Origin: Mugil cephalus
Lineage: Eukaryota; Chordata; Actinopteri; Mugiliformes; Mugilidae
Direction: 5' to 3'
DNA: 64,000 bases
NCBI RefSeq assembly: GCF_022458985.1
Contig: NC_061771.1
Span: forward strand, 21,773,501 to 21,837,500
A program made the translations under genes and the position numbers. The notes beneath the pieces were generated by a model. The model saw only the letters and a list, made by a program, of their open reading frames with translations. It had not been told where the DNA came from and searched no databases. Positions within the stretch are counted from its first letter, which is position 1. Each line of letters opens with the position of its first letter. Positions 3,013-27,638 of this stretch are shown in pieces.

Positions 3013-5529
3013 TGCTCACCTACTACACATATAAATAAACTCAACAGTTGCCTGTGCACGCCAGCACACAGTCTACAGACGCCCCCCACTTTCTAATTGA
3101 CATCAAAGTTCCACATGTGTGGGACCGTTCACCAGCTTAAAGGTGCTTAGACACGAAGTGATGTAAGAAAATGAGGGAAGGGGGGAAAGGCCATGCTTTT
3201 TTTTTTCTCTCACTCGTTCTCATCTCTGCTTTAATTGCCCCCGGTGACATCTTGTCATTGTGCTGTAGGACGAGAGGTCACGTCCGCTGCTATCCTCTCC
3301 ACCCTCACCCCTCTTCCTTTTCTTGCCCAGTTACATAAACTCGATGTGAATCGACGTCGTGCACCGTGTGGCCCCGCTGTGCAGTTGTGCCTGACACACA
3401 CGCATACAAATCAAAAGTGTGCACCATGGTTGTTTCCTGACCCTGTTTCCTTCTTTCTGATTCCACCCCTTTTCTGTCTTCTGGTCCCGTCAGTGCCGCC
3501 CGACTCTTCCGCCCTCCTCCCCTGGGCTCCAACGTGAACACCGCCCGCACATCCACCTTTTTGTTTATACTGGAAAGAGAGTGGACCGGTGTGTGCTCAC
3601 AGTATCTACTCCTCACGCATAGCGCAGTGGTATCAATGCAAACCTCCATGGGAAGTCTGCGGCAGGTCTTTAACTGTAAATCAGGTTATGATGATAGTGT
3701 TTGGGCTGCGTGGTCAGAGCAAAGCTATCAGAGCTAAAAGCCAGAGGAGTGGCACTTAAACACTAACAGTTACATAACTTCACACTGCCTTCGTATGACT
3801 GGTCTACCTTGTGGGGGTAATTTGCATGATCCTTTTTTTTTTTAGGTTGTCTGTTAATGGGGAAATGGAACAGCTCACAAATTCACAACAGTTAATTTGC
3901 ATAGGTTTGCATGTATACACTTGCATCATCTTGTGTCAGTATTCATGCAAATCACTGACTGGGAATGTTGTATGTTTTCCTTGCAGTTTCAATCGACTGA
4001 TTCAGATGACGTATTAAACATGTTATGTAAAATTTCATGTAAAAAAAAAGGGCAGAGAATTCTCTTTAAGATTTCCCTTCAGGTGCAACTTTAGGTGCCA
4101 CTTTAATAACTTCTGTCGTGACGGGAAACAAGGAGGCAAGGCAACAGAGCAATGGAAATGCTGAGTGTGAAATACTAGGAATAAAAGCGAGTTAACAGTT
4201 ATCAGACGGCTGCCGCTGATGCAAACCTTTTATTCATCTGTAAACTACTAAAACGTCAAATTAACCCTAACGCTATTTATTCAAAAGCTACAGCGGTGGT
4301 TAATCATAAACTAAAATTTACATGGTGAGCTGCAGCCCCTGCATAAACCGGGAAATCCCAAGGGTCAGGAACAGAGAAAAGCATCCAGCGTCCAATCTGG
4401 ATTTATGAGCTCAAATGCACCGGGCAGTAAAGTGTTCTTTATGTTTTTATGGTCTTTTAGTCTCCAATTTCTCCTCTTCCCCTATTTAAAGAACGTAACC
4501 AAATTATTTTATGTCTCTGTTGAAGTTTTTGGAAGTCGCACACTCGCTATCGAGCGATTATAAAGCTGCATCACAGAAACATTCTCACAGCCAACATTTT
4601 TACGGACCACGGGGAAAGAAGCCACGGGGACCACCAGAAATATGGAAGACATGCTATAATGACTGAAGTTCGTGGACCGTTCCAGTGCGGTGGGAATGGG
4701 ATTCAGTCACCACAAGCAGAGGGTGAGGTTGGACAGCACATGAAGACGGGGCTGGGAATGTGAGGGAAATATGGAGGTGGGACACTTTGGAAAATGCAAG
4801 GCGGGCATTTTTTTTATTTATTTATTTTTTGTGGATTGCTTACAACTCAAACAACATCGCCCCCGTCTGGGCCTTCAGAGAAGAGCAGCGACTGATCTCA
4901 AAGTTTTTCCTGGTGGAGGTTACTGCCTGTTTACACTTTTAGGGTGCTTGTAAAGCAGGGATCTATAACACACAACTTCCATCATTCAAAAATAGTTGCC
5001 AAATTCTTTTTTTTACCTGTCTTATGAACACATGACACAGAAGCTCCTTAAAACATTAACACGCCAAGTCAGTGACAATGAACCGATTCAGACAGTAGAC
5101 GGCTTTCAGACATTTTGACTTGTCACAGTGGGAAAATCAAAGCTGGAATTAATGACGTTCATAATAATAATAATAATAAAGTTCTGTATTTATGGCATTG
5201 GACCTCCACTAAGTACAAGAATGTCTGATGTGAACCAGGACACTGAAACTGAAGCAGATGACTAATTTTGTTTTTCACTTGTGTCACGACAATGGCCAAA
5301 ATGATTAGTTTGGTCACAGTACTGGCACTAACCCGGCAGGCTGAAACTGCAGCTACAGCCTGACACACACTAGATGGCAGACGGATGCCGCTGGATGCCT
5401 CATCCTACACCGCACAGGCATTTTTTTTTTTTTTCAAGCGTTTAAATAGTTTGAATCAGGAACACTGATTATCCTGAGACGTGAGATAACAGTGGTCCCG
5501 CAGCTGCTTGAACTCACCTCCATTTAACT
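3013..5529. other. Intergenic region between fascin and iqce; no gene seen
   Basis: The two genes are transcribed away from each other from here. I see poly(T)/poly(A) runs (3197-3207, 3831-3843, 4040-4048, 5421-5435) and a short (ATA)n at 5161-5178. The open frames are short and have no recognisable motif. Confidence 0.6.
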
Positions 5530-6697
5530 AACTGTGAGATCACTAGCCTGGATTGGGTCAGTCATATTAAAGGGGGTGACTATTTATGCAGCCAAAATAT
5601 ACTGACAAATATTCCATTTACAACATATATATATATAAGAGATTAATACTTTTTTTTATAGCACTGCAGGTGCTGTTTATTTTGCCCTTTTTGAACTGAG
5701 CTTTTTGTACCGTACGTGTGCTGTGTTTGCCCTGAACAAAAGTACGCCGTCCTGCCTGTGTGTGGGGCTCCTGGGGGTCCACCACCTGTAAAAACACTGC
5801 GTACGAGAATATGATACAGTCAGAAGAGGCCACCGTGTTCTCTGCAGTGTTTGCAGGGAGGAGGAGATCATGAGGAGCAACACAGAGGCAGCGGTGGGTG
5901 GTTTAGATAAACGAGTTGCAGAGTGTTGATATATATTTTTAGGCAGAGACAAAGACAAAAACCTCTGCTGACAAATAGACCTAGTCTACAGGTCAAGAGA
6001 TGTCAGTGTCCATGTGCAGAAAATATTACATGTGACACAAAAAAGCAAGGTAATGGAGCAATGAAAATGTCTAGAAATAATAATAATAAAAAAGAAAACA
6101 ATAATAATGAGCAGAAAGTAAAAAGCAAACAAAATGCTGCTGGAAATTGTAAACATTTTTTACTATGAGCCAAATACTCAGCAGTCCCATCGTGATTAGT
6201 TAAGGTCAGCAAATGACAAGCAAACGGAGTCTCAAGTGTGCGTTACCTTCCCATTTTTCCTCGTCTGCTCGCCTCATGCTATTGGAGGAAGTCGCTTCAA
6301 GTCCCTCCTTTCAGCACAACTGACTCCAGTAGTGGTTAACGCAAAGAAGCGAGACAGAAAGCAAGAACTGACAGAAATAACACACACAGGTATTAGCTTT
6401 TGTCAAGCTAAACAAAGCTAAAAACAAAGTATGACCGATTGAGATTTTCAAAATAAGTCGGCGTATGAAAAACACCTTATAACTTTCTTGATATTGCTAG
6501 TGTATTTTCCCCTATTTAAAAATGATATTTAATCAGAAATGTGTGGCAAATTAATATATTGAGCTACACGTTTTTTATTGAGTAAAGAACAGTTTATCAA
6601 ATTGGTTTGTTTTACTTTGAAGGAAATCTCATGTGGATTCCGGTGCCGCTCTGTTTTTTTGTCCGTTAGCTTGACGTAGCTAGGTAACAGCTGCCTG

Positions 6698-6710
6698 GTT
6701 GCTAGACGAC
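6698..6710. promoter_or_regulatory. RFX X-box in iqce copy 1 promoter
   Basis: GTTGCTAGACGAC fits the X-box consensus RYYNYYNRRNRAC at every position on both strands. It lies about 330 bp upstream of the exon 1 ATG. RFX factors drive ciliary genes through this motif, which suits a gene acting at the ciliary base. Use of the site is inferred. Confidence 0.6.
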
Positions 6711-8639
6711 TCGCTCTGCAGATGTGAAAACAGAGATCTCTTCTCAGAAAGACAACAGCGCTTTTAACTGGATTCCAGGAAGATATGATTAACAGCCCTT
6801 ATCACCAGGTGAACGGGCTTTTACCTGAGCGAACTGATAATGTTCCGGAGGAAAATTTTGGAGTTGTAGCATAGCTAGCGTCTCTATTGTTGCCCCATGT
6901 TTTTACTACTACTAAAAGCAAAGAGGGGCAGCCTGGAGTGAACGTTTTTTGACTCTGGAGTAAAATGAGCGGAGTAAACACGGAAAGAGTCCAGGTTTCC
7001 AACTTAACGTAACGTTTGCCTCCTAGCTATGTTTAGCGCAGCTGCCAAGATGTCTGTGGAGGCGAGTGATGTTCAAACTGATGAAGACTGTGAGGAGCTG
7101 GTGAGTCCTTCTCTTCGCTTAGCTTAAACAAAAAAATCGTTAATTCGGTTTGTGCGTATCGAGCGTATCGATGCTTCCGATATAAGCGTCTGTTTTTTTT
7201 AGAATCGATCTTCACATCCAAATACCATTTCACAAGACATATTAATACTTTTATGAAACTGAATCTGTAATTAATCCTAGGAAAGTAAAAAAGCGTGAGA
7301 GAGAGGGAGTGCACACCTGGAAAATAAATGAGAAGACATCACAGTTCACATCACAGGCATATGGCATGTACAATGACCAAAAAGAGTGATATTGAAGTTA
7401 GAGTGACTGTAGATTCATTTTTGTTTGTTTCAGGATTTTCAGATTAGTTCACTTGTTGATTTGCACAGATCGTGTTTAATTGCTCTGTAAAAAAGAAAGA
7501 AAGAAGTATGATGTTTGGCAGCTTGTTTAATCTTTATTTTAAAATCGACCCTTGATTTTATCTGTCCCAAAATTGTGGGGGAAAACAAACAGTGTTTATC
7601 ACCTCATATCTAACTTGTTACTACAAAGTGTAATTTGAGCCAAATTTGATCCACATTTGATCCACCTAAAACATTTTCTATGATCCTTGCCAGGTGATAT
7701 TTGACCCATAACACCACAGAAGTCATTTTCTTTTTTAGAGACTTTCAGAATTTACTGAAATTGTGATTTTTGTGTGTGTGTGTGTGTGTTTAAATAGCTA
7801 TTCTTGAGGATATCATGAAGCCTTGTCCCCATAAAAACAAGAAACATGTAATTTCTTACACATTGTAACTTGCAAATTAGTCAAAATTGACCCTAACACA
7901 ATATAAAGGTGTTAGGTGCAAGCAAATACACCATCGCGACTGTCCTGCACTAAATCTTTGCTTCAGGACTTTTAAATGTTCAGTTTATGTTGAAACAGCA
8001 TCAGAAAGGTGCCTCTTCAATTGTCCGATCATTTAGTAGGATGTAGTTGTGGCGTCGTTAAACAGGAGGGGATTGAAGTGTTTTTGTTATTTAGGCGAGG
8101 GCACCGACTAAAATGGGGTCAAAATAATATAAACGTGTTTGTACAGCAAAATAAATTACAGTAGTAGCAGAAACCACAGCCTCCAACATGAAGACACAGT
8201 TGAAACAACAGCTCTGTTATTTCAAACTAATGCTGAATACCATAACGTTCATGAAGCTAAGATTTAGTGCATGACGGTTGTATTTACACGTGTACCTAAT
8301 TAACTGGCAAGTCAGTGAATATCTATTATATGTCGCTGATTCCTCCTCTGTCCATAGATTGAAGATGGTTTCTCTCTCCTGCTGATGTCCCAGTAAAGGT
8401 AATCAAACTGACTGATGGTCCCAGTTTTCATTTTTGGCATCCTACATCTTGTCTTTTATTTTCTGTGTGGAGTCAAGCTTTTGCTGGATATCCTCTGCTT
8501 TATCCACTGTCAGAGAACAAGGAGGAGAAAATCTGCTGGCAAGCCTCCTCATTCTCCGAGTAAGACCTGATTTACAGCTCTCTGGGAAAATATTTTCACA
8601 CAGTTGAACAAAGTCTACGTTGCACATTCCATATTTATT

Positions 8640-8641
<2 letters not shown>

Positions 8642-8669
<28 letters not shown>
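8642..8669 (+). repeat. (TG)n in the acceptor tract of iqce exon 4, copy 1
   Basis: The TG run is followed directly by CGCGCAG and exon 4, so the usual polypyrimidine tract is replaced by a length-variable microsatellite. The same arrangement is at 19001-19028 in copy 2. Confidence 0.85.
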
Positions 8670-8675
<6 letters not shown>

Positions 8676-10379
8676 GGGTCTCCATATCTCTCCAGTCTGA
8701 ATGTGAACCCCAGGAGAGGAGCCGTGGGAGCCGCCTGGAGACTGCCTAGGGGCTCCCTCGGGGACACCAGAGGAGACACACCTGGGGAGACTGGCTCAGC
8801 TCGCCTCACGTCCCTCAGCAACGGCCACGGTAGGCGGCGTGAAAACACAACTGAAGCTCTCAGACCGTGTCTGTCCTCACATGAATGCACACTAAGTCAG
8901 TGCGCCTTTTGTTTTGTTTTTTTGTTTTTTTTTAACGGCTTGCTGCTGTTGGAAATAAGTTGAGGCAAGTTGAAAGCACTGCAGCTTCTCCGTGGCTTCA
9001 TCACTTCATTATAACTTAAAATGAATCATGTGCACTGCTAGTCACTGCCTCAGTGTGTTCTCAAAATGTGTTAAAAGCATGAGTCAGATGGCGTATTAAA
9101 CTGTGTCTGCGCAGAGCTCTGTTCTTTTGTTCTCACCCACTGTGCAAATGTTTTATGGATAGTGGTATGTGCAGGAGTGATGCAGGGAAATAACCCTGAC
9201 AGGAGGTGCAGTGTGGACATGTCATTCAGGACTATCAGTGTAAGATTAGTCTGGTGGTCATGTCTGTGCTCAGGGATCTGAAGATCCTCTTGAGAATACA
9301 GGAACATTTTCAGAAACTTCCAATGTAACAGTTTACATGGACACCAAATAGAACGATCCAATAGGTTGTACAGGATGCTTTTACATGCCCCAAAACATTA
9401 ATCACGATGTAACTAATGCAAAGTAGTTCCTTCTGCTGCATTAAATGGGCTGGAAACATAACAGAAGAAGTTCATTAACAATTCATTTAGTAGAAGAAGA
9501 TGATTGAGACGGAACCAGTTTTTCACTCTCACTGCCCACGTCAAAGACTTTTTATAAGAACTCGTTTTTCTACCTCCTCGTTCATGTCACTGACAAACTA
9601 CACATGGTGCAAACATGCACAAAAATTGTGTATTTAGAAAGAAAACAACTGCCGTTTTCATGCTTATATCTTCCTATTGAACACATTATCAATGTTAACA
9701 TTAACATATCTTTTATCAAAGGTCCACATCACCCATCCTTCCAACTGAATGCATTTGTTCTGATTGTGGTGGTTACATGTTTTTATTCTGATTTGGCTTC
9801 TATTTGGATCATTAGTAGCGAGTAGTGTACGTGTAAACACACAGTTACTGGGACGGCTGGAGTCCTCGATCTTTTTGATAACTGGAGTTGCACCACGAAG
9901 TTGCACCACTTGACTCAGAATTTAATTGAAACACAGTAATATGTAAAATCCAAAAAAAATCTTTTTTTTTTTTTTTAAAAATCACACAGAAGCATGAACA
10001 AGTCTTGATGTTTGGAGCCTTTCTCTCTCTCTCTCACTGTTTTCCAGATCTTTTCCAGACGCTCAGATCAGAGTGTGATGTTACGCCCGAGCTCATCAAA
10101 CAGAGCCCGAGCATGAGGAAATACAAACATCTCCAGTCCGCGTGCAACGGTGAGAGGACGCGTCGCTGTCTCAGAATGAGAAATGAAGCGAAGTAGAGAG
10201 TGAAGGTTTTTTTTTAAGGGTAGAATACGAGTGATTTTTCTTGAACATGTGTTTTATGTCCCTACGGTTGCAGGTTTTGCTTTAGGTACAGGGGACAACA
10301 GGGACAAGGAGGACATGCATGATGAGATCATTCGCCTTAAGAAGGTAAAGAGTAAAGATAATTCAGAACACATTAGATA

Positions 10380-10665
10380 ACGCACTGTGCGTCAGTGTGA
10401 TGTCAGTAGAAGCAACGTGGGAGGTTCTTCCTTTACAATCGAGATTGACGTCATGTAAAAAGATGTGTACGCCGATCAGCCACAACATTAAGACCACTGA
10501 CAGGGGAAGTAACATTGACCATCTTGTGATAATTCAACATTCTTCTGGGAGTGGACCTGGTATTCAGGTGGATGTTACTTCGACATGTAGCACCCACCTA
10601 GACCAGACCAGACCAGACAAATCCCAACCCAGGACAGACACCCTCCTCGCATAGGAATGCATCCT
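10380..10665 (+). repeat. Degenerate Tc1-like repeat in iqce intron 6, copy 1
   Basis: CGATCAGCCACAACATTAAG, followed by GACCACTGACAGG, matches the terminal repeat of a widespread fish Tc1/mariner family. The text then runs to the tail-side phrase GTGGATGTTACTTCGACATG. The central transposase part is missing. The last 50 bases (CCAGA pentamers) differ strongly between the two iqce copies. Confidence 0.75.
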
Positions 10666-12179
10666 GAAGCATGCAGCCTGTAACACTGTCTGGCCTTCAG
10701 TTAGACCATTATGTCCTTTTATTACACTATAAAAGCTCCATTCTGCCGTGTTTTTTATTTTCATCAGACACATTCAGGATTTTCGTTTGCTCTCTTTCAC
10801 ATGTCGACCTTGATGATTCTCTGCAGAGCCTCCAGGCACATAAGTCCGACAACCAGCAAATGAAAGCAAAACTGCGGCGGCTGGAGGAGGATAACGCTAA
10901 AAGAGAGAAACAGATAGAGGAGCTGTTGGATCCCACCAAGGTAAGATGACAGAATCATTTTTTTATTTTTTTTTCTCACAGTCACTAGAACATCATGAAC
11001 TGTGTTACGTTTTCCACAGGGCTCCGAATACACTCGCAGTTTGGTTGACAAGAAAAGAGAAGGGAGTGTGGTGAGTGTGTCCGCTGTGTAGGTGAACATT
11101 ACGAGACATTATTTTCTGGATGAACATCTTAATGAGACGATTCTGTCCGTTAAGGTTCTCAACGGGCTGAAACAGAGAATCCTGAAGCTGGAGCAGCAGT
11201 GTAGAGAGAAAGAAAATGCCTTAAGGTAAAAGAAGTCCCTTCAACTTTAAGTAAGTCCAGTGAAATGGCTCGTGTGTGAAGCAGCATCGTCGAGGTTATT
11301 CCCTTTTTATTTCTTCAGTAAACTACAAAGTGAGCTGAGGACCACCAACCTGGAGAGCTGAAGATCACAGTAGAAACCTACTTTGACGAGGTAACGTCGC
11401 TGCGGCGTCTGTGTTCTCTGCTGCGCAAAACATCCTCGTTTCAAAACAAGGCAGTGGTCCTACTAACCTATGGACTTGGCTAGTGAAAATATAACGCTAA
11501 TATTCCTGTTTACATGCAGTTAAGTTTGCCTCAGCCTTTCAAACGCAGCCTCCACTTTTATTATTCCTTGAGCTGTTGCGCCTCCTCCCCCCCCCCCCCC
11601 ACCCCCCGCTGAGATTCATACGTCCTAATGTTGCTGTATGAGCTTGGAAGTCAGCCCGATTTCCCTGGGCCACAAAATTTTTGCTCTGTTGGGAACTGAT
11701 TATGCTCTGGCAAGGATCTGCTGGGACAATTCAATAGTTTGGGCCGTCTTTATGCGGTGATGGACAGAAAGTAGCAGCGATGTACTCGTACATGTAATCT
11801 GAGCACCGTGAATTTGAATTTGTTTACAACAAAATGACTGATTTGTTGAAGGACTATGCAATTGCATGAGGTTTTTTTTTGTTGTTGTTGTTTCTCTGTA
11901 TTGATTGAAATATCCCAGTGCCGTGATACTAGACTCATATTCTTCTCATTATTACAATGAATAATATAATATATTGTGAATTTCTCATAGTGATTAATAA
12001 AGTATCCATCTATATATCTATAAAGTTGATTTGTGTGTCTTTCAGATCCAGAGACTGAGGATGCTTCTAGAAGCTGCAGAGAAAAGGTGTGAACAACTAA
12101 AATCATGTATGACCTATTCTGGGTCCTACATCTATAAAAACAGCAGAATTACTGTAGAATTGTTGAAGTTAACATGTAA

Positions 12180-12610
12180 GGACTAGAGATCTAACCGATA
12201 TATCGGCCGTCTGATATATCGGGCGACATTTCCGTTTTCAACTGGCCCCTTTTCTTTTATTTCTTTTTTCTTTATTTAAAAAAAACAAACACCCAGATCT
12301 ATTTACTTTATCACTCAGCACCAACACATTACAGTCATTAGCAGCAGTCCTAACTTTTTACTGTTGTTGTTTAATGGGAGTTTGCTAGCTGATTTTTTTT
12401 TCTCTCCACTGTCCACAGTTTAGACTGAAGCTGTTGCATTGTTGTTAAGCTTTAGTGTCATTTGTTACCAATGTGTCATTTTTTATCATGTAAATTGAGG
12501 GAGAAAAAGCAGCATCGACTCCAAATATGAACGTATTAGCCATCAGCCAATGCTGATGTAAAAAAAATATATATATCGGCCATAAAAAATCCATAGCGGT
12601 CAATCTTTAA
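12180..12610. repeat. Non-autonomous repeat with CGATATATCGGCC ends, iqce intron 11, copy 1
   Basis: The left end reads CTAACCGATATATCGGCC. The right end reads TATATCGGCCATAAA...AGCGGTCAATC, an imperfect inverted copy. The interior is AT-rich and non-coding. It looks like a hAT-like miniature element, but no target-site duplication was confirmed. Confidence 0.5.
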
Positions 12611-14610
12611 TAAGGACAGTTTTTTTCTTAAAGTTACATCTGTATATGTGTAATGTTCAAGTACAGTTGCAGCAGTCACAGATTGGTCAGAAGAAAGGAT
12701 TGCAGGGTGTACGACGAATCCCTAAATTCAGTCTCCACTTCACTCTCTCTTTGTGTGTGTGTCTGCCTGCAGCAGCCGAGCGGAAAGTAAATGCTCTCAG
12801 AGGCAGCAGAAGGCTTTAAGCTCCACGGTTCATCGTCTGTCCGAGAACCTGAAGCAGCTTCAACAGGAGAACGTGGCGCTCAGAGAGGAGCTCAGCACTG
12901 ACAGCCCTGCTGGAGGAGTTAAAGGTCTTTACTCACGCGTCGCCACACCCCAATATTTTAATATAACCAACAATATTCCCATCCAGTTACTCTGCTCCTT
13001 ACAGGTTCTTTTTTTTTCCTTTTTCTGTTGCACGTAAGACTTGTTTAGGACACTTACAGTGTCGGTGAAAAGTCTGGACACATCTTTTCATTCAGTGCTT
13101 TTACTTTAGTTTTATTTTAGTCTCCTTTGTAGATAAAAGGCCACTTCACACAGGACTATTTTTACCTGGGGACCTCCGGTAATTTCTAATAACTGTGGAG
13201 GTCGTCTGCGAATCGGCCATGTCTGTAATTTGTAAATTACAGACTGACTCTGTCAGGTTCCTCTAATGACAAAACATTTATTTGTCAATTATTTTTCTTT
13301 ATCTGTCAATTTTTTATAGTTATTTGCTTGACAGTTTTTACTTAGACATAGCTAAACGCTAACATACTAAAATATGTTGGATTCTTGTTAATGTGTATTT
13401 AAAGACATTTAAAATTGTGGGGGAAAATTAAAAAAAAATATACAAAATGTCTAATCAACCAAAGATTTTGCAACCCCCCCTGCAGTACCTTCTCTGAGCC
13501 CATAGGGGTCGCCAATCCCCCTTTGAAGTCCTGTGCTATAGACTTTAAAATTGTATGTAATTTTCTAGTAAACAAAAAAGTGTGCAACTAAGCAGATATG
13601 TTTTATGTTTTTAGGTTCTTCAAAGATGCCAGCTTTTGCTTTGGTGACATTTTTGAACCCCTTTGTACCTTTAAACGGTGTAATGAAAGTCATAAACGAG
13701 TTCCTGTGATGCTTCCTTTAACAGTTTAGTACGAACGAAACAGCCCTTACAGTTTTAAAGTAGATGTTGAAATCTTGAAATGTATTTCCCAATGTGTTTC
13801 TACATATTGTTTGCATCAGATGGTCAATCCTTTCTTTAAACCTGTCAAACTCTGTCTCACTGGCATTACATCCATCAGAAAGGAATGAAAATGTATCCCA
13901 TCAAAGTTTTAGAGGAGTTCAAGGAATAATAAAATAACTGTTCATCACTTCACTATTAATATTTAATACTTGTTTTCAGTGGGGATGGATTACTGTAATA
14001 GAAATATTAGGGAAAATACGTGTAAGTGCAGATATCCTAGAAAACAATAACAGCAGCAAAAAATGTTGAAATATCTTTAGAAACAATACCTTAAATTTGT
14101 GGAACCCAGTGAGTGGACAGAAGTAAGAAGCAGTAAGATGTTCTTCACTGTGATGCTGATGGAGGTTTGTGCGTGATGATGTTTCCCAGGCTACAGGGAG
14201 TGGAGTAAACAGAGGCTGCTGAGGAGGCTGTTGGAGGTGGAGAAGGTGAGAGGAAGCTCGATGTTCATTTAAAACACGTGCAGTGGTCTGTGTCCACCGA
14301 GGCGCTGCATCACAGACGGACTCCTCTCTCGTCCTATCAGAGGCTGGAGGACGGCAGGAGACACGCCCACTCGGCAAAGAGCGGCGGCCGATTGGACCGG
14401 GAGGTCCAGGCCACGCTGGCGGAGATTCCGGGCGCTGCCATGGCAACAGAAGCACTGGTCTCCGTGGGAACGGTCACGGAGGAGGAGGGGGGAGGGGGGA
14501 GGAGCTTTCGGATTTGAGGGAACGCCTCAGCCAATTGGAAAAGGATAGGGCGGAGCTTCAGGAGAAGTTGTCAAGTAGAGAGTGAGTCAGCTGCTTTTTA
14601 TACTTTTATA

Positions 14611-14815
14611 CACTGATCGGCCACAACATTATGACCACTGACAGGAGAAGTGAATAGTATTGTGACAATACAATGTTCTGCTGGGAAATTTTTTGAACCT
14701 GGCTTTGGTGTGGATGCTACTTAGACATGTAGCACCCACCTAGATCAGACCAGATAACCCCCCACCCCATAGAAATGACACTCCTTGATGGCAGCAGGAC
14801 GAAGCCTGACACCGA
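14611..14815 (+). repeat. Degenerate Tc1-like repeat in iqce intron 14, copy 1
   Basis: It begins CACTGATCGGCCACAACATT after a TA dinucleotide and continues ATGACCACTGACAGG. It carries the same tail phrase (TAGCACCCACCTAGA, CACTCCTTGATGGCAGCAG) as the other members in this window. No transposase reading frame survives. Confidence 0.75.
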
Positions 14816-17064
14816 CACACGCCCAAAAAACGTTTTCTGCAGCTTTATCTTAAACCTTAAGTCACATTAATAATCTTAATTAATAATATAAAACTGAAAG
14901 AGAAAACAGTTTAAGGTGGTTTACTGGGAGTCTCACCTGTACAAGCTGCAAGTACAAAGCCACTGAGTTTGGATCTTGAAACTGAATTCATCTTTGGTGC
15001 GTTTGTTCTCAGTGATGAACTCAAACAGTCGAGGGCCGACAGAGAAGAACTGGAGAAAGAGACGGAGCGACGGAAAGCTGAAGAGGCAAAACAACAGGAG
15101 AAAGAGAGACAGCAACATAAGTATGTTTTTAATTGAGGAATCTGATGTCTGTTTGGTCCAACATGCCCGGACATGTGACTCCTCTGGCTGTCAAGTTAAA
15201 TATTTTGAATAGGGTCGGATATGCTTACCACCTAATGTGTGTTTCTTAACATATTTCTAAAATTGAATTAGTTCTCTGATATTTGTTTAGCTCAAAACCA
15301 AAGATGGATTCAGAAATCCTCACCTAAATAACTGCCAACTGTTCGAGGACGTCCGCTGCGGCTGCCAGCTGCGTTTTGTTTGCTCCGTGTGAATGTCCTT
15401 CGCTTCCCAGACAGGAGTTGGAGAAGCTGTGGAGAGGATTCGTGCTCTGGAGGAGGAACGAAGCAAACCTACACAGGCTGAGCTCACGTCTGGTTTTCTC
15501 CCGCCACGGCCGAGAGTCACGAGGACGCTCGGAGCAGAGCAGGTCCGGGGGAGGGAGAGGAGAGACACACTGGATGTAAAGGGAAGGAGGCGGAAGAAGA
15601 TGAGGACCTGGGTACGAACGCAGGGGAGAAAGAAAGAGAGAAAGCAGCGTCGGTCATTCAGACTAACTGGAAGGAGCACAGAAATAGGGTAAATAAATGT
15701 TCTAAACACGTATGTGTGGAGAAATATTGTTTATTAAATGTCCTGACGCTCCGTCATCTTTGTGCATTCTCTCTACAAAGGACATTGTGATGTTGCAGTC
15801 GGCGTTAAGAGGCCATCTACGCAGAGAGTCGCAGCTAAAGGACTTGCTGAAAGATGCTCACAATAAGGTTTAATCCTTATTATTATACACATCCCAACTG
15901 TGAGATCACTAGCCTGGATTGGGTCAGTCATATTAAAGGGGGTGACTATTTATGCAGCCAAAATATACTGACAAATATTCCATTTACAACATATATATAT
16001 ATAAGAGATTAATACTTTTTTTATAGCACTGCAGGTGCTGTTTTCTTTGCCCTTTTTGAACTGAGCTTTTTGTACCGTACGTGTGCTGTGTTTGCCCTGA
16101 ACAAAAGTACGCCGTCCTGCCTGTGTGTGGGGCTCCTGGGGGTCCACCACCTGTAAAAACACTGCGTACGAGAATATGATACAGTCAGAAGAGGCCACCG
16201 TGTTCTCTGCAGTGTTTGCAGGGAGGAGGAGATCATGAGGAGCAACACAGAGGCAGCGGTGGGTGGTTTAGATAAACGAGTTGCAGAGTGTTGATATATA
16301 TTTTTAGGCAGAGACAAAGACAAAAACCTCTGCTGACAAATAGACCTAGTCTACAGGTCAAGAGATGTCAGTGTCCATGTGCAGAAAATATTAGATGTGA
16401 CACAAAAAAGCAAGGTAATGGAGCAATGAAAATGTCTAGAAATAATAATAATAAAAAAGAAAACAATAATAATGAGCAGAAAGTAAAAAGCAAACAAAAT
16501 GCTGCTGGAAATTGTAAACATTTTTTACTATGAGCCAAATACTTCAGCAGTCCCATCGTGATTAGTTAAGGTCAGCAAATGACAAGCAAACGGAGTCTCA
16601 AGTGTGCGTTACCTTCCCATTTTTCCTCGTCTGCTCGCCTCATGCTATTGGAGGAAGTCGCTTCAAGTCCCTCCTTTCAGCACAACTGACTCCAGTAGTG
16701 GTTAACGCAAAGAAGCGAGACAGAAAGCAAGAACTGACAGAAATAACACACACAGGTATTAGCTTTTGTCAAGCTAAACAAAGCTAAAAAACAAAGTATG
16801 ACCGATTGAGATTTTCAAAATAAGTCGGCGTATGAAAAATACCTTATAACTTTCTTGATATTGCTAGTGTATTTTCCCCTATTTAAAAATGATATTTAAT
16901 CAGAAATGTGTGGCAAATTAATATATTGAGCTACACGTTTTTTATTGAGTAAAGAACAGTTTATCAAATTGTTTTGTTTTACTTTGAAGGAAATCTCATG
17001 TGGATTCCGGTGCCGCTCTGTTTTTTCCCCCGCTAGCTTGACGTAGCTAGGTAACAGCTGCCTG

Positions 17065-17077
17065 GTTGCTAGACGAC
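17065..17077. promoter_or_regulatory. RFX X-box in iqce copy 2 promoter
   Basis: The motif GTTGCTAGACGAC of copy 1 is kept unchanged here, although bases about 35-60 bp upstream differ between the copies (near 6655-6668 and 17022-17034). It lies about 330 bp upstream of the copy 2 ATG. Confidence 0.6.
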
Positions 17078-17394
17078 TCGCTCTGCAGATGTGAAAACAG
17101 AGATCTCTTCTCAGAAAGACAACAGCGCTTTTAACTGGATTCCAGGAAGATATGATTAACAGCCCTTATCACCAGGTGAACGGCTTTTACCTGAGCGAAC
17201 TGATAATGTTCCGGAGGAAAATTTTGGAGTTGTAGCATAGCTAGCGTCTCTATTGTTGCCCCATGTTTTTACTACTACTAAAAGCAAAGAGGGGCAGCCT
17301 GGAGTGAACGTTTTTTGACTCTGGAGTAAAATGAGCGGAGTAAACACGGAAAGAGTCCAGGTTTCCAACTTAACGTAACGTTTGCCTCCTAGCT

Positions 17395-18998
17395 ATGTTT
17401 AGCGCAGCTGCCAAGATGTCTGTGGAGGCGAGTGATGTTCAAACTGATGAAGACTGTGAGGAGCTGGTGAGTCCTTCTCTTCGCTTAGCTTAAACAAAAA
17501 AATCGTTAATTCGGTTTGTGCGTATCGAGCGTATCGATGCTTCCGATATAAGCGTGTGTTTTTTTTAGAATCGATCTTCACATCCAAATACCATTTCACA
17601 AGACATATTAATACTTTTATGAAACTGAATCTGTAATTAATCCTAGGAAAGTAAAAAAGCGTGAGAGAGAGGGAGTGCACACCTGGAAAATAAATGAGAA
17701 GACATCACAGTTCACATCACAGGCATATGGCATGTACAATGACCAAAAAGAGTGATATTGAAGTTAGAGTGACTGTAGATTCATTTTTGTTTGTTTCAGA
17801 TTTTCAGTTCACTTGTTGATTTGCACAGATCGTGTTTAATTGCTCTGTAAAAAAGAAAGAAAGAAGTATGATGTTTGGCAGCTTGTTTAATCTTTATTTT
17901 AAAATCGACCCTTGATTTTATCTGTCCCAAAATTGTGGGGAAAACAAACAGTGTTTATCACCTCATATCTAACTTGTTACTACAAAGTGTAAATTGAGCC
18001 AAATTTGATCCACATTTGATCCACCTAAAACATTTTCTATGATCCTTGCCAGGTGATATTTGACCCATAACACCACAGATGTCATTTTCTTTTTTGAAGA
18101 CTTTAATAATTTACTGAAATTGTGATTTTTTGTGTGTGTGTGTTTAAATAGCTGTTCTTGAGGATATCATGAAGACTTGTCCCCATAAAAACAAGAAACA
18201 TGTAATTTCTTACACATTGTAACTTGCAAATTAGTCAAAATTGACCCTAACACAATATAAAGGTGTTAGGTGCAAGCAAATACACCATCGCGACTGTCCT
18301 GCACTAAATCTTTGCTTCAGGACTTTTAATAATGTTCAGTTTATGTTGAAACAGCATGAGAAAGGTGCCTCTTCAACTGTCCGATCATTTAGTAGGATGT
18401 AGTTGTGGTGTCGTTAAACAGGGTGGAATTGAAGTGTTTTTGTTATTTAGCCGAGGCCACTGACTAAAATGGGGTCAAAATAATATAAACGTGTTTGTTC
18501 AGCACAATAAATTACAGTAGTAGCAGAAACCACAGCCTCCAACATGAAGACACAGTTGAATCAACAGCTCTGTTATTTCAAACTAATGCTGAATACCATA
18601 ACGTTCATGAAGCTAAGATTTAGTGCATGACGGCTGTATTTACACGTGTACCTAATCAACTGGCAAGTCAGTGTATATCTATATATATGTCGCTGATTCC
18701 TCCTCTGTCCATAGATTGAAGATGGTTTCTCTCTCTCTGCTGATGTCCCAGTAAAGGTAATCAAACTGACTGATGGTCCCAGTTTTCATTTTTGGCATCC
18801 TACATCTTGTCTTTTATTTTTCTGTGTGGAGTCAACGCTTTGCTGTCTATCCTCTGCTTTATCCACTGTCAGAGAACAAGGAGGAGAAAATCTGCTGGCA
18901 AGCCTCCTCATTCTCCGAGTAAGACCTGATTTACAGCTCTCTGGGAAAATATTTTCACACAGTTGAACAAAGTCTACGTTGCACATTCCATATTTATT

Positions 18999-19034
<36 letters not shown>

Positions 19035-22000
19035 GGTCTCCATATCTCTCCAGTCTGAATGTGAACCCCAGGAGAGGAGCCGTGGGGGCCGCCTGGAGAC
19101 TGCCTAGGGGCTCCCTCGGGGACACCAGAGGAGACACACCTGGGGAGACTGGCTCAGCTCGCCTCACGTCCCTCAGCAACGGCCACGGTAGGCGGCGTGA
19201 AAACACAACTGAAGCTCTCAGACCGTGTCTGTCCTCACATGAATGCACACTAAGTCAGTGCGCCTTTTGTTTTGTTTTTTTGTTTTTTTTTTAACGGCTT
19301 GCTGCTGTTGGAAATAAGTTGAGGCAAGTTGAAAGCACTGCAGCTTCTCCGTGGCTTCATCACTTCATTATAACTTAAAATGAATCATGTGCACTGCTAG
19401 TCACTGCCTCAGTGTGTTCTCAAAATGTGTTAAAAGCATGAGTCAGATGGCGTATTAAACTGTGTCTGCGCAGAGCTCTGTTCTTTTGTTCTCACCCACT
19501 GTGCAAATGTTTTATGGATAGTGGTATGTGCAGGAGTGATGCAGGGAAATGACCCCGACTGGAGGTGCAGTGTGGACATGTCATTCAGTAACATCAGTGT
19601 AAGATTAATCTGGTGGTCTGTGCTCTGGTCTGTGCTCGGGGATCTGAAGATCCTCTTGAGAATACAGGAACATTTTCAGAAACTTCCAATGTAACAGTTT
19701 ACATGGACACCAAATAGAACGATCCAATAGGTTGTACAGGATGCTTTTACATGCCCCAAAACATTAATCACGATGTAACTAATGCAAAGTAGTTCCTTCT
19801 GCTGCATTAAATGGGCCGGAAATATAACAGAAGAAGTTCATTAACAATTCATTTAGTAGAAGAAGATGATTGAGACGGAACCAGTTTTTCACTCTCACTG
19901 CCCACGTCAAAGACTTTTTATAAGAACTCGTTTTTCTACCTCCTCGTTCATGTCACTGACAAACTACACATGGTGCAAACATGCACAAAAATTGTGTATT
20001 TAGAAAGAAAACAACTGCCGTTTTCATGCTTATATCTTCCTATTGAACACATTATCAATGTTAACATTAACATATCTTTTATCAAAGGTTCACATCACCC
20101 ATCCTTCCAACTGAATGCATTTGTTCTGATTGTGGTGGTTACATGTTTTTATTCTGATTCTGATTTGGCTTCTATCTGGATCATTAGTAGCGAGTAGTGT
20201 ACGTGTAAACACACAGTTACTGGGACGGCTGGAGTCCTCGATCATTTTGATACCATGAGTTGCACCACGAAGTTGCACCACTCTTGACTCAGAATTTAAT
20301 TGAAACACAGTAATGTGTAAAATCCCAAAAAAATCATTTAAAAAAAAAATAAAAAATCACACAGAAGCACGAACAAGTCTTGATGTTTGGAGCCTTTCTC
20401 TCTCTCTCTCTCACTGTTTTCCAGATCTTTTCCAGACGCTCAGATCAGAGTGTGATGTTACGCCCGAGCTCCTCAAACAGAGCCCGAGCATGAGGAAATA
20501 CAAACATCTCCAGTCCGCGTGCAACGGTGAGAGGACGCGTCGCTGTCTCAGAATGAGAAATGAAGCGAAGTAGAGAGTGAAGGTTTTTTTTTAAGGGTAG
20601 AATACGAGTGATTTTTCTTGAACATGTGTTTTATGTCCCTACGGTTGCAGGTTTTGCTTTAGGTACAGGGGACAACAGGGACAAGGAGGACATGCATGAT
20701 GAGATCATTCGCCTTAAGAAGGTAAAGAGTAAAGATAATTCAGAACACATTAGATAACGCACTGTGCATCAGTGTGATGTCAGTAGAAGCAACGTGGGAG
20801 GTTCTTCCTTTACAATCGAGATTGACGTCATGTAAAAAGATGTGTACGCCGATCAGCCACAACATTAAGACCACTGACAGGGGAAGTGAATAACATTGAC
20901 CATCTTGTGATAATTCAACATTCTTCTGGGAGTGGACCTGGTATTCAGGTGGATGTTACTTCGACATGTAGCACCCACCTAGACCAGACCAGACCAGACC
21001 AGATCAGACCAGACCAGACACCCCCACCCCATAGGAATGACACTCCTTGAAGGATGCAGCCTGTAACACACTGTAACAGTGGCCTTCAGTTAGACCATTA
21101 TGTCCTTTTATTACACTATAAAAGCTCCATTCTGCCGTGTTTTTTATTTTCATCAGACACATTCAGGATTTTCGTTTGCTCTCTTTCACATGTCGACCTT
21201 GATGATTCTCTGCAGAGCCTCCAGGCACATAAGTCCGACAACCAGCAAATGAAAGCAAAACTGCGGCGGCTGGAGGAGGATAACGCTAAAAGAGAGAAAC
21301 AGATAGAGGAGCTGTTGGATCCCACCAAGGTAAGATGACAGAATCATTTTTTTATTTTTTTTTCTCACAGTCACTAGAACATCATGAACTGTGTTACGTT
21401 TTTCCACAGGGCTCCGAATACACTCGCAGTTTGGTTGACAAGAAAAGAGAAGGGAGTGTGGTGAGTGTGTCCGCTGTGTAGGTGAACATTACGAGACATT
21501 ATTTTCTGGATGAACATCTTAATGAGACGATTCTGTCCGTTAAGGTTCTCAACGGGCTGAAACAGAGAATCCTGAAGCTGGAGCAGCAGTGTAGAGAGAA
21601 AGAAAATGCCTTAAGGTAAAGAAGTCCCTTCAACTTTAAGTAAGTCCAGTGAAATGGCTCGTGTGTGAAGCAGCATCGTCGAGGTTATTCCCTTTTTATT
21701 TCTTCAGTAAACTACAAAGTGAGCTGAGGACCACCAACCTGGAGGAGCTGAAGATCACAGTAGAAACCTACTTTGACGAGGTAACGTCGCTGCCGGCGTC
21801 TGTGTTCTCTGCTGCGCAAAACATCCTCGTTTCAAAACAAGGCAGTGGTCCTACTAACCTATGGACTTGGCTAGTGAAAATATAACGCTAATATTCCTGT
21901 TTACATGCAGTTAAGTTTGCCTCAGCCTTTCAAACGCAGCCTCCACTTTTATTATTCCTTGAGCTGTTGCGCCTCCCCCCCCCCCCCCCCCCCCGCTGAG

Positions 22001-25000
22001 ATTCATACGTCTAATGTGCTGTATGAGCTTGGAAGTCAGCCCGACTTCCCTGGGCCACAAAATTTTTGCTCTGTTGGGAACTGATTATGCTCTGGCAAGG
22101 ATCTGCTGGGACAATTCAATAGTTTGGGCCGTCTTTATGCGGTGATGGACAGAAAGTAGCAGCGATGTACTCGTACATGTAATCTGAGCACCGTGAATTT
22201 GAATTTGTTTACAACAAAATGACTGATTTGTTGAAGGACTATGTAATTGCATGAGGTTTTTTTTGTTGTTGTTGTTTCTCTGTATTGATTGAAATATCCC
22301 AGTGCCGTGATACTAGACTCATATTCTTCTCATTATTACAATGAATAATATAATATATTGTGAATTTCTCATAGTGATTAATAAAGTATCCATCTATATA
22401 TCTATAAAGTTGATTTGTGTGTCTTTCAGATCCAGAGACTGAGGATGCTTCTAGAAGCTGCAGAGAAAAGGTGTGAACAACTAAAATCATGTATGACCTA
22501 TTCTGGGTCCTACATCTATAAAAACAGCAGAATTACTGTAGAATTGTTGAAGTTAACATGTAAGGACTAGAGATCTAACCGATATATCGGCCGTCTGATA
22601 TATCGGGCGACATTTCCGTTTTCAACTGGCCCCTTTTCTTTTATTTCTTTTTTCTTTATTTAAAAAAAACAAACACCCAGATCTATTTACTTTATCACTC
22701 AGCACCAACACATTACAGTCATTAGCAGCAGTCCTAACTTTTACTGTTGTTGTTTAATGGGAGTTTGCTAGCTGATTTTTTTTTCTCTCCACTGTCCACA
22801 GTTTAGACTGAAGCTGTTGCATTGTTGTTAAGCTTTAGTGTCATTTGTTACCAATGTGTCATTTTTTATCATGTAAATTGAGGGAGAAAAAGCAGCATCG
22901 ACTCCAAATATGAACGTATTAGCCATCAGCCAATGCTGATGTAAAAAAAAAATATATATCGGCCATAAAAAATCCATAGCGGTCAATCTTTAATAAGGAC
23001 AGTTTTTTTCTTAAAGTTACATCTGTATATGTGTAATGTTCAAGTACAGTTGCAGCAGTCACAAATTGGTCAGAAGAAAGGATTGCAGGGTGTACGACGA
23101 ATCCCTAAATTCAGTCTCCACTTCACTCTCTCTTTGTGTGTGTGTCTGCCTGCAGCAGCCGAGCGGAAAGTAAATGCTCTCAGAGGCAGCAGAAGGCTTT
23201 AAGCTCCACGGTTCATCGTCTGTCCGAGAACCTGAAGCAGCTTCAACAGGAGAACGTGGCGCTCAGAGAGGAGCTCAGCACTGACAGCCCTGCTGGAGGA
23301 GTTAAAGGTCTTTACTCACGCGTCGCCACACCCCAATATTTTAATATAACCAACAATATTCCCATCCAATTACTCTGCTCCTTACAGGTTATTTTTTCCC
23401 TTTTTCTGTTGCACGTAAGACTTGTTTGGGACACGTACAGTGTCGGTGAAAAGTCTGGACACATCTTTTCATTCAGTGGTTTTACTTTAGTTTTATTTTA
23501 GTCTCCTTTGTAGATAAAAGGCCACTTCACACAGGACTATTTTTACCTGGGGACCTCCCGTAATTTCTAATAACTGTGGAGGTCGTCTGCGAATCGGCCA
23601 TGTCTGTAATTTGTAAATTACAGACTGACTCTGTCAGGTTCCTCTAATGACAAAACATTTATTTGTCAATTATTTTTTTTATCTGTCAATTTTTTATAGT
23701 TATTTGCTTGACAGTTTTTACTTAGACATAGCTAAACGCTAACATACTAAAATATGTTGGATTCTTGTTAAAGTGTATTTAAAGAGATTAAAAATTGTGG
23801 GGGAAAATTAAAAAAAAATATACAAAATGTCTAATCAACCAAAGATTTTGCAACCCCCCCTGCAGTACCTTCTCTGAGCCCCTAGGGGTCACCAACCCCC
23901 CTTTGAAGTCCTGTGCTATAGACTTTAAAATTGTATGTAATTATCTAGTAAACAAAAAAGTGTGCAACTAAGCAGATATGTTTTATGTTTTTAGGATCTT
24001 CAAAGATGCCAGCTTTTGCTTTAGTGACATTTTTGAACCCCTTTGTACCTTTAAACGGTGTAATGAAAGTCATACACGAGTTCCTGTGATGCTTCCTTTA
24101 ACAGTTTAGTACGAACGAAACAGCCCTTTCAGTTCTTGAAATGTATTTCACAATGTGTTTTTACATATTGTTTAACATCAGATGGTCAATCCTTCCTTTA
24201 AACCTGTCAAACTCTGTTGGGAATCACACTGACATTACATCCATCAGAAATGAATGAAAATGTATCCCATCAAAGTTTTAGAGGAGTTCAAGGAATAATA
24301 CAATAACTGTTCATCACTTCTCTATGAATATTTAATACTTGTTTTCCGTGTGGATGGATCACTGGAATAGAAATATTAGGGAAAATACGTGTAAGTGCAG
24401 ATATTCTAGTAACAGCAGTAAAAACTGTTAACATATCTTTAGAAACAATACCTTAAATTTGTGAAACCTAGTGAGTGGACAGAAGTAAGAAGCAGTAAGA
24501 TGTTCTTCTGTGCGTGATGATGTTTCCCAGGCTACAGGGAGTGGAGTAAACAGAGGCTGCTTAGGAGGCTGCTGGAGGTGGAGAAGGTGAGAGGAAGCTC
24601 GATGTTCATTTAAAACACGTGCAGTGGTCTGTGTCCACCGAGGCGCTGCATCACAGACGGACTCCTCTCTCGTCCTATCAGAGGCTGGAGGACGGCAGGA
24701 GACACGCCCACTCGGCAAAGAGCGGCGGCCGATTGGACCGGGAGGTCCAGGCCACGCTGGCGGAGATTCCGGGCGCTGCCATGGCAACAGAAGCACTGGT
24801 CTCCGTGGGAACGGTCACGGAGGAGGAGGAGGGGGAGGGGGAGGAGCTTTCGGATTTGAGGGAACGCCTCAGCCAATTGGAAAAGGATAGGGCGGAGCTT
24901 CAGGAGAAGTTGTCAAGTAGAGAGTGAGTCAGCTGCTTTTTATACTTTTATACACTGATCGGCCACAACATTATGACCACTGACAGGAGAAGTGAATAGT

Positions 25001-26657
25001 ATTGTGACAATACAATGTTCTGCTGGGAAATTTTTGAACCTGGCTTTGGTGTGGATGCTACTTAGACATGTAGCACCCACCTAGATCAGACCAGATACCC
25101 CCCACCCCATAGAAATGACACTCCTTGATGGCAGCAGGACGAAGCCTGACACCGACACACGCCCAAAAAACGTTTTCCGCAGCTTTATCTTAAACCTTAA
25201 GTCACATTAATAATCTTAATTAATAATATAAAACTGAAAGAGAAAACAGTTTAAGGTGGTTTACTCGGAGTCTCACCTGTACAAGCTGCAAGTACAAAGC
25301 CACTGAGTTTGGATCTTGAAACTGAATTCATCTTTGGTGCGTTTGTTCTCAGTGATGAACTCAAACAGTCGAGGGCCGACAGAGAAGAACTGGAGAAAGA
25401 GACGGAGCGACGGAAAGCTGAAGAGGCAAAACAACAGGAGAAAGAGAGACAGCAACATAAGTATGTTTTTAATTGAGGAATCTGATGTCTGTTTGGTCCA
25501 ACATGCCCGGACATGTGACTCCTCTGGCTGTCAAGTTAAATATTTTGAATAGGGTCGGATATGCTTACCACCTAATGTGTGTTTCTTAACATATTTCTAA
25601 AATTGAATTAGTTCTCTGATATTTGTTTAGCTCAAAACCAAAGATGGATTCAGAAATCCTCACCTAAATAACTGCCAACTGTTCGAGGACGTCCGCTGCG
25701 GCTGCCAGCTGCGTTTTGTTTGCTCCGTGTGAATGTCCTTCGCTTCCCAGACAGGAGTTGGAGAAGCTGTGGGAGAGGATTCGTGCTCTGGAGGAGGAAC
25801 GAAGCAAACCTACACAGGCTGAGCTCACGTCTGGTTCTCCCGCCACGGCCGAGAGTCACGAGGACGCTCGGAGCAGAGCAGGTCCGGGGGAGGGAGAGGA
25901 GAGACACACTGGATGTAAAGGGAAGGAGGCGGAAGAAGATGAGGACCCGGGTACGAACGCAGGGGAGAAAGAAAGAGAGAAAGCAGCGTCGGTCATTCAG
26001 ACTAACTGGAAGGAGCACAGAAATAGGGTAAATAAATGTTCTAGACGCGTGTGTGTGAGAAATATTGTTTATTAAATGTCCTGACGCTCCGTCATCTTTG
26101 TGCATTCTCTCTACAAAGGACATTGTGATGTTGCAGTCGGCGTTAAGAGGCCATCTACGCAGAGAGTCGCAGCTAAAGGACTTGCTGAAAGATGCTCACA
26201 ATAAGGTTTAATCCTTATTATTATACACATCCCAACTACACACTTTTATTTTAGGTGTCTGTTAGAATATGTTTACATGCTTAAATGTTAAAAACACATT
26301 ATGTTTTTCATATTGTTGATGTGTAGTTATAGATTAAATCAGATGATGTGTCCTAGACAGCAATAACACCAGAAAACAGAGTTGTAATTTACTTTGAAAA
26401 CCACTAGATGGCTCTAAAATGCATTTTTTTGTGAGTCCATTGTTGTCTTACCTCTGTGTTAGGACTGGGTGCTATGACCAAAAATGTCATGGTATATTTA
26501 AAAATTCTGACAGTATCATGGTATATATATTTTTTTTTCATGCATAATTATGTGTTCACAACATTTTCTACTGGTTGAGGGAGGAATTAATGCAGTAGAT
26601 TCACTAATGACCGACTATTTTACTGTGATGATGAGTAAATATTGTAGAATAATAATA

Positions 26658-26688
<31 letters not shown>

Positions 26689-27638
26689 GTGGGAATTGCA
26701 GCTCGGAGCTAAATAAAAAAAAATAATGAAATGTTATCAAGATGAAATGAAGAAACAGGGACAATTATAGTTTCATTTATTTTTACACATTTATTCATAT
26801 TGGAACATATTTAAACTCCTATGTCTGTAATGTCGATAGCAGCGCGACTTGCTACCGTAATAGTTGTAGTCTGCGCACAACATTTTTTTTTCTCATTCAT
26901 AAAAAGCTAGAATTGGGGACATTTTCGGAGACAGCTTTAGTCAGGGGACAGGTCATCCAAAAAAGGGACTGTCCCCAGAAAAAAACTGACACGGCAGCTT
27001 TTTTTGACGCAAGTCTTCTCGTTCTGCCGCTTCCTTTCTCTGACCTCTCCTTCTTCACCACACCACCTCACAGTGACACAGTCGCACCATGCATGTCTAG
27101 CAGCGCTACATTAAAAATGGTCCGGTCTAGCGGCGCATCGTTCCAATCACTGTGTAATCAAATACACCGGTATATTAAGAAAAGAAAATACGGGTATTCG
27201 GTATGAAGCGGTATAACATCCAGCCCTCCTCTGTGTGTCACATGTACAGTATGTGGTATCTATCTAATGCCTGTCATCGTACTCATCTCCTGGTTATCAG
27301 GCTGTGGAGTCACCCGACCGCAGCGATGCGACGTCCTCGGTCGGCGGAGAGCCGGATGCGGTTGCCTTGACGATGATCCAGTCGGCGTTCAGGGGACATC
27401 TGGCTCGCTGTAGTCTTGCAATAAAGAGGTGACTTACCTGTAAACGAGATTTGAAATAGAGGAACAGGAGAAGCCAGACTAAAGCACATTTTTCAGAATC
27501 ATGTGTGTGTGTTTGTGCATCAGCTCAGGGTTGTCTGTGCCTTCTCCAATGGAAAACAATCTGCCCGCGCTGGTACCAAGAAGAGCTCGACTAGCGCACG
27601 CACCCAGCAGAACAGGTGAGGCTCAGCTCTTTATCATG

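Follow-up and report, generated by a model that had tools for sequence, protein, structure and literature searches.

The iqce gene of the fish Mugil cephalus has probably undergone a real partial tandem duplication, of an ordinary kind, whose upstream copy has since decayed. The duplication lies in the window analysed here, a stretch of 64,000 nucleotides at 21,773,501-21,837,500 of its contig (NC_061771.1, here C2, assembly GCF_022458985.1; the assembly searched comprises 634.8 Mb in 24 contigs). Self-BLAST of the window returns a single long direct match, 5530-15899 against 15896-26237, with 97.39% identity over 10,423 columns (138 mismatches, 49 gap openings). The upstream unit U1 (5530-15895, 10,366 bp) is directly repeated as U2 (15896-26233, 10,338 bp), and when the two are aligned globally under different gap costs they differ by 120 mismatches over 10,277 aligned columns (1.17%) and by 56 insertion or deletion (indel) events. 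The BLAST ranges overlap by 4 bp because the tetranucleotide AACT is common to the edges; the bounds of U1 and U2 count it once. Two direct, adjacent and near-identical copies, the right edge of one joined to the left edge of the other, make this a tandem segmental duplication in the assembly, and the window holds no N bases, so the join is gap-free. Each unit includes 1,499 bp ahead of the likely iqce ATG and extends 28 bp beyond coding exon 15.

Both breakpoints and the join are legible at base level, which makes this a tidy case. The left edge reads ..CATTTAACT then AACTGTGAGATC, the junction at 15896 reads ..CACATCCC then AACTGTGAGATC, and the right edge reads ..CACATCCC then AACTACACAC, with AACT common to all three and no base inserted at the join; the whole 201-bp junction fragment has one location in the assembly. 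Short identity at the join, with neither long homology nor insertion, places the event among microhomology-associated duplications. Among about 200,000 random breakpoint pairs drawn 8-10.9 kb apart in this window, at least 4 bp were shared in a fraction of 0.019 and exactly 4 in 0.013, the observed overlap having been taken from the three edges separately from these draws; the overlap is nominally above chance, yet it concerns one event only. End joining and template switching are both compatible with it; the two leave the same product and are indistinguishable as pathways. Edge-spanning pieces of 201 and 211 bp have no match in the assembly beyond the duplication itself, in a search that ignores very common words. 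Within the window and the 200 kb upstream, 400-bp pieces taken around each breakpoint likewise hit only the duplication. When 2-kb stretches around both edges were compared, the matches at E < 0.01 comprised only an AAT-type simple repeat, none at the join. Since the edge pieces match only the duplication, recombination mediated by repeats or transposons is unsupported, and it was set aside for lack of a repeat common to the edges. The AACT at both outer edges was also considered as a transposon-like 4-bp target duplication and rejected, because the iqce gene crosses the right edge and the unit therefore cannot be an insertion. The original prediction, made from the bare letters, had given the duplication as 5530..26237 with quoted left, junction and right edges, AACT at all three and a head-to-tail join of 4-bp overlap without insertion, and self-BLAST and the sequence itself bear this out in full. 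Its preference for microhomology or replication over transposons holds as far as the edges share no repeat, but an overlap of 4 bp leaves microhomology-mediated end joining, ordinary end joining and template switching indistinguishable.

Joins of this kind are familiar elsewhere. Simple ends, with at least 2 bp of identity, account for 41% of 644 Drosophila breakpoints in a Drosophila and human copy-number survey (PMC4056370), which resembles the iqce case in its simple ends and in short identity without inserted bases; its insertions and deletions are mostly small (median 34 bp), unlike the 10.4-kb tandem duplication of iqce. Microhomology/microsatellite-induced replication in yeast likewise yields duplications with only short breakpoint identity, but the yeast joins described use 5-10 bp or low-complexity DNA and depend on Pol32 (PMC2518615), whereas the iqce join has 4 bp and is known from sequence alone.

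Several repeats lie near the breakpoints. AAT-type simple repeats occur at 5161-5179 (outside the unit, about 370 bp before its left edge), 6076-6109 (about 550 bp inside U1) and 26648-26690 (about 410-450 bp beyond the right edge), none of them used in the join. A dispersed element of about 160-240 bp, with insertions 70-81% alike, is present at 10393-10613, 14609-14775, 20770-20994, 24953-25115 and 27878-28122; it thus lies within each unit and to the right of U2, at neither breakpoint. An Rfam scan of the window gave no match at the gathering score.

The gene had been named iqce in the original prediction, and the name stands. With what we take to be the human IQCE protein sequence as query, tblastn finds exons in each unit and in the flank to their right, and two iqce exon peptides searched in the assembly are found only in U1 and U2. 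An IQCE-like coiled coil with IQ motifs, set between a gene with a Fascin domain on one side and one with a Tweety domain on the other, marks the locus as the iqce orthologue; the neighbours are presumably fscn1 and ttyh3, in the order that we assume for other vertebrates. Pfam, tried on four iqce open reading frames, gave matches below the cut-off only. Exons were placed from tblastn matches, phases and splice signals, a lenient tblastn adding exons 3, 9 and 15; of the two candidates from a first splice scan for missing exons, one overlaps exon 3 in another frame with an earlier start, and the other was unused. The call of exon 1 (MFSAAAKMSVEASDVQTDEDCEEL) as the likely start draws on its ATG, open frame, GTGAGT donor and phase fit, without homology. 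The donors of exon 10 (GTCTTT) and exon 15 (GTTTAA) are weak, and the last coding exon is mismatched in phase to exon 16, leaving at least one intervening exon unplaced. Because the unit includes the likely start and the flank keeps the 3' exons, U2 and the right flank can together make a complete iqce, so that the word 'partial', applied at first to the duplication of the gene, is right for U1 only.

U1, by comparison, is broken. It has the same 15 exons with their splice signals kept, and six coding indel events in four of the 15; with the two neighbouring events of exon 12 counted as one, these amount to five net frameshifting changes. Read as it stands, U1 meets a stop at codon 37, whereas U2 is open in all exons. 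Introns and AG/GT internal boundaries retained beside a disrupted frame are the marks of a duplicated (unprocessed) pseudogene, and a processed pseudogene or retrocopy is ruled out by those introns and by the finding of the two exon peptides in U1 and U2 only. One 4-bp gap between the units can be polarised by an outside copy of the dispersed element (27871-28122) and is a loss in U1. An 'iqce-like' gene model placed on U1 by annotation would be spurious.

Table 1. Features of the iqce duplication, in positions of the window
Feature	Position	Strand	Description	Basis
Left edge	5526..5533	+	AACT then AACTGTGAG; breakpoint before base 5530	sequence read
U1, upstream copy	5530..15895	+	3'-truncated iqce copy, coding exons 1-15, four frameshifted	self-BLAST, global alignment, exon model
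U1 exon 1	7029..7100	+	likely start codon; identical to U2 17395-17466; 1,499 bp inside unit	
U1 exon 2	8358..8398	+	one base shorter than U2 18715-18756; frameshift	
U1 exon 8	11319..11390	+	one base shorter than U2 21708-21780; frameshift	
Divergence island in U1	13749..14170	+	up to 18 substitutions per 300 columns and indels of 7-21 bp, beside long near-identical stretches	
U1 exon 12	14341..14581	+	frameshifted; through two adjacent indel events it is shorter than U2 24682-24923 by a net one base	
U1 exon 14	15411..15688	+	holds the first IQ motif; frameshifted by two differences from U2 25751-26027, one of 1 base and one of 2 bases	
U1 exon 15	15781..15867	+	second IQ-like motif; identical to U2 26119-26205; ends 28 bp before junction	
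Junction	15890..15907	+	CATCCC-AACT-GTGAGATC; gap-free, right edge joined to left edge	
U2, downstream copy	15896..26233	+	iqce coding exons 1-15, all open	self-BLAST, global alignment, exon model
U2 coding exons 1-15	17395..26205	+	1,554 nt, 518 codons, no stops; all internal boundaries AG/GT	
Right edge	26228..26243	+	CATCCC-AACT-ACACAC; AACT at 26234-26237	
iqce exon 16, unduplicated	27301..27428	+	third IQ motif	tblastn, exon model
Last iqce coding exon	29099..29223	+	VDSDDSDDIIVSPS..., stop	tblastn, exon model

The history that best accommodates these observations would begin with a break 28 bp downstream of coding exon 15 and another lying about 1.5 kb ahead of the likely start codon. 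The two would have been joined through AACT by microhomology end joining or by replication template switching, a class of event that we infer from the product. The gene would have been left whole, the downstream copy and the unduplicated 3' exons forming a complete iqce with its own 1.5 kb of upstream sequence, and the upstream copy, having no 3' end, would afterwards have decayed by frameshifts while gene conversion probably held the greater part of both units similar. A duplication of a gene's 5' part costs nothing in this manner, since the original 3' exons pass to the downstream copy. A literature search combining iqce, duplication and fish genome found no report, and among the matches listed for iqce and zebrafish (titles and abstract starts) no such duplication is reported.

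A ciliary promoter motif inside the unit was looked for and the idea dropped: a scan of the unit for motifs like the X-box consensus, two mismatches allowed, gave 38 matches against a chance mean of 54.6, that is, fewer, and the match nearest exon 1 lies about 0.8 kb upstream with two mismatches (6199; copy at 16565). IQCE acts with EFCAB7 to recruit EVC-EVC2 to the cilium base in Hedgehog signalling (PMC10413113); nothing in the duplicated sequence suggests a new function, the coding exons of U2 being intact.

The differences between the units are unevenly distributed. The 120 substitutions, 58 transitions and 62 transversions, have a variance-to-mean ratio of 3.9 in noncoding 200-bp bins, with 14 of 44 bins empty, against maxima of 2.07 and nine empty bins in 5000 shuffles; this test used a provisional 12-exon mask, later replaced by the 15-exon mask, and the clustering was confirmed on all columns. 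The longest identical run between the units is 504 bp. That uniform sequencing error produced every difference is rejected for the substitutions, since they cluster. A common explanation of such patchiness is interlocus gene conversion, which probably preserved the similarity of the units over most of their length and left islands of higher divergence; mosaic haplotypes would give a like picture. Neutral rates in vertebrates are a few 1e-9 per site and year, from which the duplication would be at least about one to a few million years old; because the differences are clustered as under patchy gene conversion, a divergence of 1.1-1.3% sets a minimum for the age. Aligning the units to date the event, as had been proposed, thus returns a divergence but, through its patchiness, only a minimum age, and the same caution applies to average identity wherever divergence is clustered. 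In a description of patchy interlocus conversion (PMC2588116), low mean divergence is similarly combined with local peaks and divergence underestimates age; many of the blocks described there have raised divergence at the unit edges, unlike the iqce units, for which conversion is read from clustering only.

Since the decay of U1 is argued from frameshifts, which could be consensus errors, the accuracy of the assembly matters, and a yardstick was taken from a cadherin-domain search of the assembly in which 150 of 1384 candidates were scored. Those listed include 69 distinct places within one tandem array, C5:12.05-12.54 Mb (70 rows, since one gene appears twice). Of these listed array members, 60 occupy open frames 771 codons or longer and the other nine frames of 259-744 codons. 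At the density of U1 (five per 1,554 bases) a 771-codon frame would stay open with a chance of 0.0006, while counting all nine shorter frames as errors gives one error per about 16.5 kb among the members listed. The long open frames argue against consensus errors at the density of U1; the figure bounds the usual error rate rather than measuring it, and says nothing on the assembly quality of U1 itself.

Several findings weigh against a real duplication with a copy that simply decayed. Substitutions number four in 1549 coding columns against 116 in 8728 noncoding columns (Fisher 5e-5), and the depletion persists, with P 0.015, when the exon mask is shifted circularly so that clustering is preserved; had U1 been unconstrained since its birth, about 10 coding substitutions would be expected (half the noncoding rate). 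Such depletion is the pattern of two alleles or of two long-constrained copies. Coding indels, by contrast, are not depleted (six, against a shifted-mask mean of 8.4). The ratio of 0.47 indel events per substitution is the highest of six pairs compared (0.10-0.29 in the other five), and single-base indels in runs of at most three number 22 (2.14/kb) against three (0.28/kb) in a 10.6-kb tandem pair upstream, with 1.7-2.8/kb in four shorter upstream pairs; these single-base indels only loosely track the substitution islands. The cadherin list, finally, favours good domain matches, and nine of its 69 listed array members have shorter frames. The four coding substitutions themselves are two synonymous and two nonsynonymous.

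These findings bear first on the possibility that two haplotypes of one iqce locus were assembled in tandem, a false heterotype duplication in which the frameshifts of U1 would be consensus errors or a null allele. The patchy 1.17% divergence, with fewer coding than noncoding substitutions, resembles heterozygosity. Two features of the indels point the same way: 1-bp events in short runs are numerous, and the indel-to-substitution ratio is the highest of the six pairs. False partial gene duplications of like layout, adjacent near-identical copies that cut a gene and leave one without its 3' exons, are documented in vertebrate assemblies, some of them joined gap-free through incorrect gap filling (PMC9516828). 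A gap between the copies is a usual though not universal criterion in that source and read depth the main one (PMC9516828); the iqce copies, unlike those it describes, have a gap-free join without a single N, a sharp microhomologous boundary and one copy that is multiply frameshifted. An arbitrary join would overlap by 4 bp with a chance of 0.019, the usual indel error rate implied by the cadherin frames is far below what U1 would need, and U2 is free of frameshifts in 1,554 coding bases. Haplotype mis-assembly is therefore less likely than a real duplication, and on balance unlikely.

It is also improbable that both copies were functional for most of their history, U1 encoding, for instance, an IQCE cut short at its C-terminus or contributing to a read-through product in which exons 2-15 are repeated, and that U1 broke recently. 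The fivefold depletion of coding substitutions beside undepleted coding indels would be explained in this way, and the end of exon 1, the start of exon 2 and the end of exon 15 are all phase 0, so that a splice from U1 exon 15 to U2 exon 2 would have been in frame at birth. Clustering with gene conversion can, however, yield the same depletion, which is judged on only four coding substitutions; for a recent loss, five net frameshifting changes is a large number; and the present frameshifts of U1 rule out in-frame read-through for the sequence as it stands. More doubtful still is the proposal that the duplication was itself selected for a while, for a read-through IQCE in which the coiled coil and the first two IQ motifs are doubled or for a short IQCE from U1, before U1 broke; if that were true, such selection followed by breakage would leave a deficit of coding substitutions beside several frameshifts.

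Unequal crossing-over between repeats at both edges, a common route to tandem duplication in general and one lent some colour by the 10.6-kb pair upstream, in which the left edges of both copies sit in a dispersed element, is very improbable at iqce, being contradicted by breakpoint pieces that match only the duplication unless the mediating repeats were lost later.

Further repeats lie upstream on the contig. The near-identical 10.6-kb tandem pair lies about 344-365 kb upstream of the window start, at C2:21408012-21418621 and 21419206-21429815 (L011-L013), with 0.86% substitutions and a 584-bp spacer, and one of its translated frames resembles a pentatricopeptide gene (ptcd1-like). The element at its left edges has several other copies within 200 kb, and repeat recombination is possible for this pair because those edges lie within it; the element was not found within 400 bp of the far right edge. 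Further along, at C2:21456514-21495442 (L016-L020), direct repeats of about 1-5 kb with 92-97% identity (in the best 25 of 66 matches) suggest a local multicopy array.

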